From: Methylonatrum kenyense
Lineage (GTDB): Bacteria > Pseudomonadota > Gammaproteobacteria > Nitrococcales > Aquisalimonadaceae
DNA: 46,002 bases
Direction of reading: 5' to 3'
Assembly (NCBI RefSeq): GCF_023195885.1
Contig: NZ_JALPKO010000012.1
Coordinates: 1 to 46,002 of the forward strand
Below, piece after piece: positions 22,812 to 45,112 of this stretch; position 1 is the first letter of the stretch; every line of letters starts with the position of its first letter. The notes beneath the pieces were generated by a model. That model made no database searches and was not told the DNA's origin. It saw only the letters and a list, made by a program, of their open reading frames with translations. A program made the position numbers and the translations under genes.

Positions 22812-22819
22812 GCGCCTAG

Positions 22820-23088
22820 GGAAACACTGATTTATTCCCGCGTCTGCGCCCGAGACCGGTTTTGGTCATCTGGCAAGGCGCGGTGCCGGTTCGGTAGCCC
22901 GAGCTACCGGGCCGGTGGCGTAACACAGTCAGGGGCCAAAACCGGCCGGGCCCTTCGGGTTGGGCCGCATTTTCCCGACTGCTGCGTTGCGCTGCTTGAC
23001 CGCAGAACGACTGCGGCGCTGCACAGCGCGCCTTGCCTCGGAAAAAATGCGGACTCCAACGCAGGCGCGCGAATAAATGATTGTTTCC
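22820..23088. mobile_element. 269-bp MITE-like element, copy A (CTAG target duplication)
   Basis: The ends are GGAAACACTGATTTATTC (22820-22837) and its imperfect complement GAATAAATGATTGTTTCC (23071-23088). CTAG flanks both sides (22816-22819 and 23089-23092). The interior shows two large foldable arms. Arm 1 is ccggttttgg (22856-22865) with ccaaaaccgg (22936-22945), enclosing a ggtagc/gctacc hairpin. Arm 2 is ccgcattttcccga (22965-22978) with tcggaaaaaatgcgg (23038-23052). It has no coding capacity. It is about 93-95% identical by eye to copy B at 44736. The 4-bp YTAR duplications fit IS5-group transposition in trans. Confidence 0.85.
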
Positions 23089-23092
23089 CTAG

Positions 23093-44612: not shown

Positions 44613-44735
44613 GGCTTCTCCAGTATTGCGCTAATTTGTTTTGTGTCTAATCTTTTGCCGTTAATTATTTGACTTCTTTGGCAAAGCTTCACCGGCCCGG
44701 CACGAATGATTACCCCCGCGCGAATGAATCGTTAA

Positions 44736-45004
44736 GGAAACACTGATTTATTCCCGCGTCTGCGCCCGAGACCGGTTTTGGTCATCTGGCGAGGCGCGGT
44801 GCCGGTTCGGTAGCCGTCGCTACCGGGCCGGTGACGCAACACAGCCAGGGGCCAAACCGGCCGGGCCCTTCGGGTTGGGCCGCATTTTTCCCGAATGCTG
44901 TGTTGCGCTGCTTGACCGCAGAATGACTGCGGCGCTGCGCAGCGCGCCTTGCCTCGGAAAAAATGCGAACGCCAACGCAGGCGTGCGAATAAATCAGTGT
45001 TTCC
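44736..45004. mobile_element. 269-bp MITE-like element, copy B (TTAA target duplication)
   Basis: The ends are GGAAACACTGATTTATTC (44736-44753) and its near-perfect complement GAATAAATCAGTGTTTCC (44987-45004). TTAA flanks both sides (44732-44735 and 45005-45008), which extends the inverted repeat to 22 bp. It has the same length as copy A and the same two-arm fold, with a ggtagc/gctacc stem (44809-44814, 44819-44824) whose loop differs (cgtc for ccga) while the stem is kept. No coding capacity. It lies 123 nt upstream of the OhrR-like start and 108 nt upstream of the small exported protein gene. Confidence 0.87.
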
Positions 45005-45112
45005 TTAAACATCTCACTTCAAAGCTTAGTATCTCGTCGCGCGGCAGTTGACCGCCATCCATTGCGTTGCAGACACTGAGCTGCTAATGCAGACAACGAC
45101 GGAGAGAAGCCG

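Follow-up and report, generated by a model that had tools for sequence, protein, structure and literature searches.

One folded core lies behind different transposon ends, and two copies of a MITE that carries it are present in the window, the 46,002-nt stretch of Methylonatrum kenyense DNA that was analysed. The interior of this element is constrained in structure, and its fold and arm tips are for the most part common to elements with other ends across the phylum, a hint that the folded shape has a role of its own. The core has a fair chance of being a class in its own right. As proposed here, the class would be defined by fold and tip sequence rather than by ends, with a junction of two arms of ~99 nt and heads of 62 nt, on opposite strands as a rule, and throughout Pseudomonadota it would be flanked by ends that belong to several transposase groups. 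It would be a structured nucleic-acid module that a common cell factor recognises, and the part preserved by selection as the ends and the letters of the stems vary, a proposal that is given about an even chance of being right. MITE interiors are usually taken as leftovers, and here the interior outlasts the ends. A search of open PubMed Central by title and abstract start returned no description of this core; an earlier description is possible, as subscription papers and ISfinder were outside the scope of that search.

The two copies and their family in the host genome

The MITE copies occupy positions 22820-23088 and 44736-45004 on the forward strand, are each 269 bp long, and align with 252 matches over 270 columns. 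Both start at the 5' end with GGAAACACTGATTTATTC, from which the right end of copy 1 differs by two letters. Perfect 4-bp palindromic duplications surround the copies, CTAG for copy 1 (22816-22819 and 23089-23092) and TTAA for copy 2 (44732-44735 and 45005-45008). Hence, the coordinates and letters given in the first-pass annotation for two equal-length copies, each with its own duplication, are as claimed. In the related genome G002, both flanks of the copy 1 site align, the element is absent, and a single YTAR (CTAA) stands at the junction. The element is also not seen in the G002 region matching copy 2, where the junction has diverged and its base position is blurred. Independent insertion, which the first-pass annotation had deduced from the two different duplications, is thus upheld by the differing flanks and duplications and by the empty site with its single YTAR. 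The same evidence refutes the alternative that the copies are duplications of one chromosomal locus without any insertion, in favour of which nothing was found and which is left with a negligible probability.

The host draft genome (G000) consists of 29 contigs with 2,953,873 bases. When it was searched with the 269-bp sequence, the best 40 of 239 candidates were scored as places, in addition to minor matches. An 18-letter terminus, allowed up to two mismatches, gave 112 forward and 104 reverse matches, 216 in the 2.95-Mb genome, and the reversed pattern gave none in either direction in the same genome, so the terminus matches are not due to chance. Taken with the 40 scored places, they therefore indicate a large family that is not made up of full-length copies alone. 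Other forms in the genome include single-arm elements of 165, 170 and 172 bp, armless 50-bp elements and lone ends. A 330-bp element (L048, 1501-1830) has the ends of the family and an interior with other palindromes.

Among the first 30 copies, a perfect 4-bp duplication was found in 12 when the ends were cut by BLAST and in 14 when they were set by the terminus. A mechanical extraction of 138 elements from 12 genomes, which includes some overlapping or spurious pairs, gave 54 with a perfect duplication (TTAA 26, CTAG 23, CTAA 3, CTGG 1 and TTAT 1), 52 of which conform to YTAR, and 68 with YTAR on both sides. Such a YTAR target duplication is the rule for the IS5 group. The genome-wide search with aligned flanks, which had been suggested as a check, thus found YTAR duplications to be widespread, and the element is a MITE in all testable features. 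Insertion sites are mostly intergenic, as judged by a crude test in which 11 of 34 sites, as compared with 245 of 340 control points taken from these flanks, are covered by an ORF at least 200 aa long.

Adjoining elements lie only 4 bp apart at L247 and L252 (G001) and at L048 (G000), which would fit reuse of the palindromic target next to an end. A number of draft contigs in G001, G002 and G235 end inside or beside family elements, and assemblies therefore undercount them.

The MITEs Chunjie, QMITE and Correia/NEMIS are described, in the portions of PMC10969869 and PMC4853749 used here, as short and gene-less, with inverted repeats, target duplications, many intergenic copies and a stable fold. 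All of these traits are also found in the present element. Unlike in those MITEs, its interior has a near-fixed architecture and conserved tips that are common to differing ends across the phylum.

Fold, covariation and the arm tips

Each copy folds into a junction composed of a closing stem, arm 1, the 7-nt mini-hairpin CCTTCGG and arm 2. The closing stem is formed by inverted repeats of 28 nt, paired over 25 and 27 bp in the window copies, which lie at 22820-22847 (+) and 23061-23088 (-) in copy 1 and at 44736-44763 (+) and 44977-45004 (-) in copy 2; all of these were assigned from the MFE fold, the first also from the terminus pattern. On the forward strand, arm 1 spans 22848-22951 (104 nt) in copy 1 and 44764-44866 (103 nt) in copy 2, the mini-hairpin spans 22952-22958 and 44867-44873, and arm 2 spans 22959-23060 (102 nt) and 44874-44976 (103 nt), respectively. 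A two-arm interior had been read from the letters, and the fold recovers it in both copies with arms of 102-104 nt on the closing stem. The further reading that the loop of arm 1 diverged while its stem was kept is also correct, the loop being CCGA in copy 1 and CGTC in copy 2 on a GGTAGC/GCTACC stem unchanged in both. The RNA folding z-scores of the two copies are -8.97 and -10.16, and none of 200 shuffles was equally stable.

The same junction was found in 98 of 112 full-length elements of the near family, the exception being G003 with 2 of 8. From these 112, 43 elements of G000, G001, G002, G003, G006 and G011 were chosen for spread and aligned. The RNAalifold consensus contains 78 pairs, of which 37 show pair-keeping changes on both sides. 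In this consensus, the poorly aligned outer half of arm 2 is unpaired, although single folds do pair it. Comparisons with shuffles overstate significance since the sequences are related, and with this reservation paired cells amount to 96.5% versus 86.0% shuffled, double-change cells to 353 versus 127.5 shuffled and no more than 69 at every slide of partners, and further pair types to 87 versus 79.9 shuffled, a value reached in 3 of 500 shuffles. Seven elements from two families (in G010, G004 and G038) have nearly invariant arm tips and stems that differ more.

Each arm ends in a head, roughly 62 nt long, with the form GCGTTGC-helix-CTTG-hairpin-TGCG-helix-GCGCCTTG, in which the letters of the two internal loops are conserved. 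A covariance model of the arm 2 tip (R1, 62 nt) was trained on 32 heads, including those of L067 and of both window copies, which match by construction; its E-values are rough. The head of arm 2 (H2) lies on the forward strand at 22979-23040 in copy 1 (85.1 bits; L001 1660-1721) and at 44895-44956 in copy 2 (90.2 bits, E 1.9e-22). The head of arm 1 (H1) was placed on the reverse strand by alignment, at 22869-22934 in copy 1, where its columns are the counterpart of the H1 of relatives, and at 44785-44850 in copy 2. The H1 heads of relatives are matched by the H2 model on the opposite strand, and H1 of copy 1 gave no match to R1 at E 0.05.

The element carried a second head on its other strand at 21 of 33, 5 of 19 and 12 of 24 loci in three sets, of which the first and third have one element in common, and the spacing between the two heads is most often about 107 bp. 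Both arm tips are therefore of one kind. Orientation was assigned with R1 and not with a loose head pattern, which gave nested matches. Both heads are on the same strand in L067 (1503-1670, G034) and L077 (1499-1665, G010), and L066, from the same genome as L077, has the usual arrangement; evidently, one arm can flip. Opposite orientation is thus a rule with exceptions.

Among 55 distinct heads (A5, fitted to the model's structure), double-change cells number 180 as compared with 51.9 shuffled and at most 21 slid, and further pair types are not above shuffles (31 versus 30.9; 288 of 500). Over 26 genomes, identity is 0.72 in the heads and 0.56 and 0.55 in the adjoining 20-nt stems, with a shuffled baseline of 0.51. 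The stems fold at -29.8 kcal/mol with their own partner versus -11.8 kcal/mol with swapped partners, and 23 of the 26 genomes lie more than 2 sd below.

Palindromes could also be self-correcting, through template switching or the repair of hairpins, in which case the stems would stay paired unselected, the core would have no function and the rest would be common descent. Self-correction would yield double changes in stems and inverted repeats alike, and the armless 50-bp forms fit a loss of hairpins in place rather than the spread of armless elements, since a perfect duplication is present in none of the three loci fetched, a number too small for a conclusion. However, self-correction would erase the internal loops and mismatches of the heads, which are kept while the stems drift, and it leaves unexplained why arms behind different ends have an interquartile range of 97-101 nt. 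This explanation is considered unlikely. Selection on structure, at which the arm 1 loop had hinted, is accordingly supported beyond arm 1 by the covariation analysis suggested at the outset (353 double-change cells, 37 of 78 pairs), by the comparison of heads with stems and by the shared fold, with self-correction still a rival for the stems.

One core behind different ends

R1 matches 61 of 369 genomes of the class at E 1e-4, 16 of them with at least 10 matches each among the best 14 candidates per genome. In a sample of the phylum, it matches 29 of 398 genomes, 18 of which are outside the class, among the best 13 candidates per genome. The two samples overlap, and G000 and G404 are positive in both. 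Viral contigs, scanned to check specificity rather than to survey them, gave no match to the strict head pattern and at least 120 stretches with a loose spaced pattern; of 80 loci listed, 12 pass R1 at E 0.01 and five (L392, L408, L394, L458 and L454) score as heads at E below 1e-8. Four elements were searched against a plasmid collection, where three had no match and one had a 57-base partial match to an Azotobacter plasmid.

Bounding inverted repeats were found around the heads at 57 of 62 scanned loci; the other five are L322, L330, L335, L366 and L372, and L316, L377, L378, L384 and L344-L347 were left out of that scan. As judged by single folds without size selection, a closing stem of 24-36 bp carries two arms, each 80 nt or longer, in 48 of the 57 bounded loci, the 57 coming from 41 genomes and the 48 from 33. 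In these 48 loci, the median arm length is 99 nt (IQR 97-101, range 93-170), and 38 have a mini-hairpin of at most 12 nt between the arms. The remaining nine (L315, L317, L331, L337, L340, L349, L351, L354 and L355) do not have a 20-bp stem bearing two arms of that length, and in some short ones among them (96-107 bp) the bounding repeat may itself be an arm. A hand-picked set of 30 bounded elements included 29 with the two-arm junction, the unselected 48 of 57 being the fairer count.

The ends behind which this core is found are of several kinds. The first, GGGAAACRCTGAT and the like with YTAR, is present at L315, L318, L329 and L379 and in the family of the window. The second consists of CTAG-TGTCCTGTC (L338), CTAG-TGTACTGCTTCACTC (L332) and CTAG-TACTCTTTCAAGG (L327), and the third of TTAA-CCCGGCAAC (L321, L323 and L325). 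The fourth comprises GAGCCTGTCTCAT, GAACGTGTTTACG and the like, and further kinds exist. At ends of the fourth kind, 3-bp duplications of TAA or TTA (TNA) were found at 7 of 14 resolved loci in genomes G606 and G775, 16 loci having been tried and two of them having no resolved ends. A TNA duplication is the rule for the IS427 and IS1031 groups, which belong to the same family as the IS5 group, and the GAGCCTGTCTCAT- and GAACGTGTTTACG-like ends with TNA on this core are presumably of the IS427/IS1031 type. An autonomous element with ends AGTACTCTTTCAAGG was not recognised by eye among the terminus places listed for four draft genomes.

The occurrence of the same arm lengths, junction and tips despite clearly different inverted repeats points to a role of the folded DNA or RNA in spread, or to a host factor, and the 62-nt head provides a sharp handle for finding that role or factor.

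The putative mover and the working of the core

The first-pass annotation had proposed that an IS5-type transposase encoded elsewhere may move the element. An IS of 1202 bp with ends GGAAACGCTGATTTATTCGC and GGAAGCGCTGATCTAATGCC and YTAR flanks is indeed present in relatives, in four copies in G004 and in one copy, with slightly changed ends, in G011. Its 327-aa product matches DDE_Tnp_1 and DUF772 above cut-off and the NCBIfam model 'IS5 family transposase' with 339.5 bits (cut-off 140). This IS5-group element (L085) has the same end GGAAACGCTGATTTATTCGC, YTAR flanks and an IS5-family transposase; it codes for that transposase, whereas the MITE is gene-less, and no head was found inside it. 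In the host genome, profile searches with PF01609 and PF05598 gave no matches, and profile and protein searches found no intact IS with the same ends in the draft. The protein search revealed one 47-aa IS5-type transposase fragment with an internal stop (G000:C24:201810-202085; L214), and a YTAR-flanked terminus-like sequence, GGAAATGCTGATTTATTTCG, lies 135 bp from it. The simplest reading is that the mover was formerly present in this genome and has since decayed.

Related transposases with like ends and YTAR flanks were found in Thiobacillus (a MAG), Telluria, Duganella, Herbaspirillum and Methyloversatilis. When 60 loci around such transposases were searched for heads, three weak matches were obtained, all outside the bounded IS, which is present in part and not all of those loci. 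Since no head was detected within the autonomous IS, the heads are seemingly not needed for recognition by the transposase as such.

The explanation regarded as somewhat probable is that of a MITE with IS5-group ends and a folded core that acts as nucleic acid, its heads being recognised by a common cell protein. An IS5-family transposase would have cleaved the GGAAACRCTGATTTATTC ends and linked these to YTAR targets, of which 4 bp would be duplicated; the ends, the duplications, the empty site and the matching IS in relatives all point to such transposition. The interior is a folded core and no decayed gene, common to many MITEs with different ends, as folding, covariation and the head model show. 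It is built of a closing stem formed from the inverted repeats, two arms of near-fixed length and a conserved head at each tip, the two heads usually on opposite strands. Most likely, the core acts as folded DNA, extruded or single-stranded during replication. A common cellular protein, the putative partner, may recognise the heads, and such recognition would help the elements to spread or to be tolerated, whichever transposase moves them. The nine bounded loci without the two-arm fold, and G003, where only 2 of 8 elements have the junction, stand against this explanation.

The core may instead work as RNA, being co-transcribed with its neighbours so that the arms provide a structure that stabilises, processes or terminates the mRNA. 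The plus strand is more stable as RNA than the minus strand in 93 of 112 copies, with a mean advantage of 9 to 14 kcal/mol in G000, G001, G002, G006 and G011, and the plus strand folds better in genera g3 and g4 and, within this genus, in three of four genomes. The mostly intergenic insertions are consistent with transcription, and in L067 and L077, with both heads on one strand, a single transcript could carry both. Stable folds of MITE transcripts have been described, in the part of PMC10969869 used here. However, no plus-strand preference, or the opposite one, is found in G003 (2 of 8), G010 (1 of 2), G004 (1 of 2) and G038 (0 of 4), and because the preference fails in these four genomes it is treated only as a rival; within a clade, moreover, a strand preference reflects few independent changes. 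The heads are on opposite strands as a rule, so that most elements look much the same from either strand, a symmetry more in keeping with DNA than with a transcript; this argument is weakened by the same-strand heads of L067 and L077. No Rfam family was matched at gathering score in 8 element loci or in the window; the best match inside an element, M23, is weak and below its cut-off. A function as RNA is judged possible and rather less probable than not.

REP doublets are paired inverted hairpins, and the two heads per element, usually inverted, resemble them. The heads could thus be REPIN-like sites kept by a single-strand (HUH) transposase, the IS5-like ends being secondary, and the many intergenic copies are likewise REPIN-like traits. 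Paired hairpins in many intergenic copies, as reported for REPINs and BIMEs in the part of PMC2817692 used here, are a trait in common with the present element, which unlike these has inverted-repeat bounds, target duplications and longer heads with internal loops. The duplications, namely perfect 4-bp YTAR in 52 of 138 elements and 3-bp TNA in 7 of 14, are marks of DDE transposition, and no regular GTAG or CGTC tag was found beside the heads, only 10 of 82 loose head matches having one within 6 nt of the head edge. Single-strand transposition of such sites is therefore very improbable, and a core carried by DDE-type ends is preferred.

Like the present core, the attC sites of integrons are hairpins folded from a single strand, with some bases left unpaired and with stems that vary; they contain a pair of boxes, RYYYAAC...GTTRRRY. 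None of 28 elements has these boxes 30-110 nt apart on either strand (0.00 per element in letter-shuffled controls), and identity with attC was rejected.

Two further loci concern the heads. In G011, a different, one-armed MITE (L080, 326-514) with ends TTAA-GGAGCCTCTGATCTATTCGC lies near an autonomous IS and has, by alignment, a head like that of arm 1, with no R1 match at E 0.05. At L336 (1326-1422), a small SRP RNA gene adjoins a head-bearing element.
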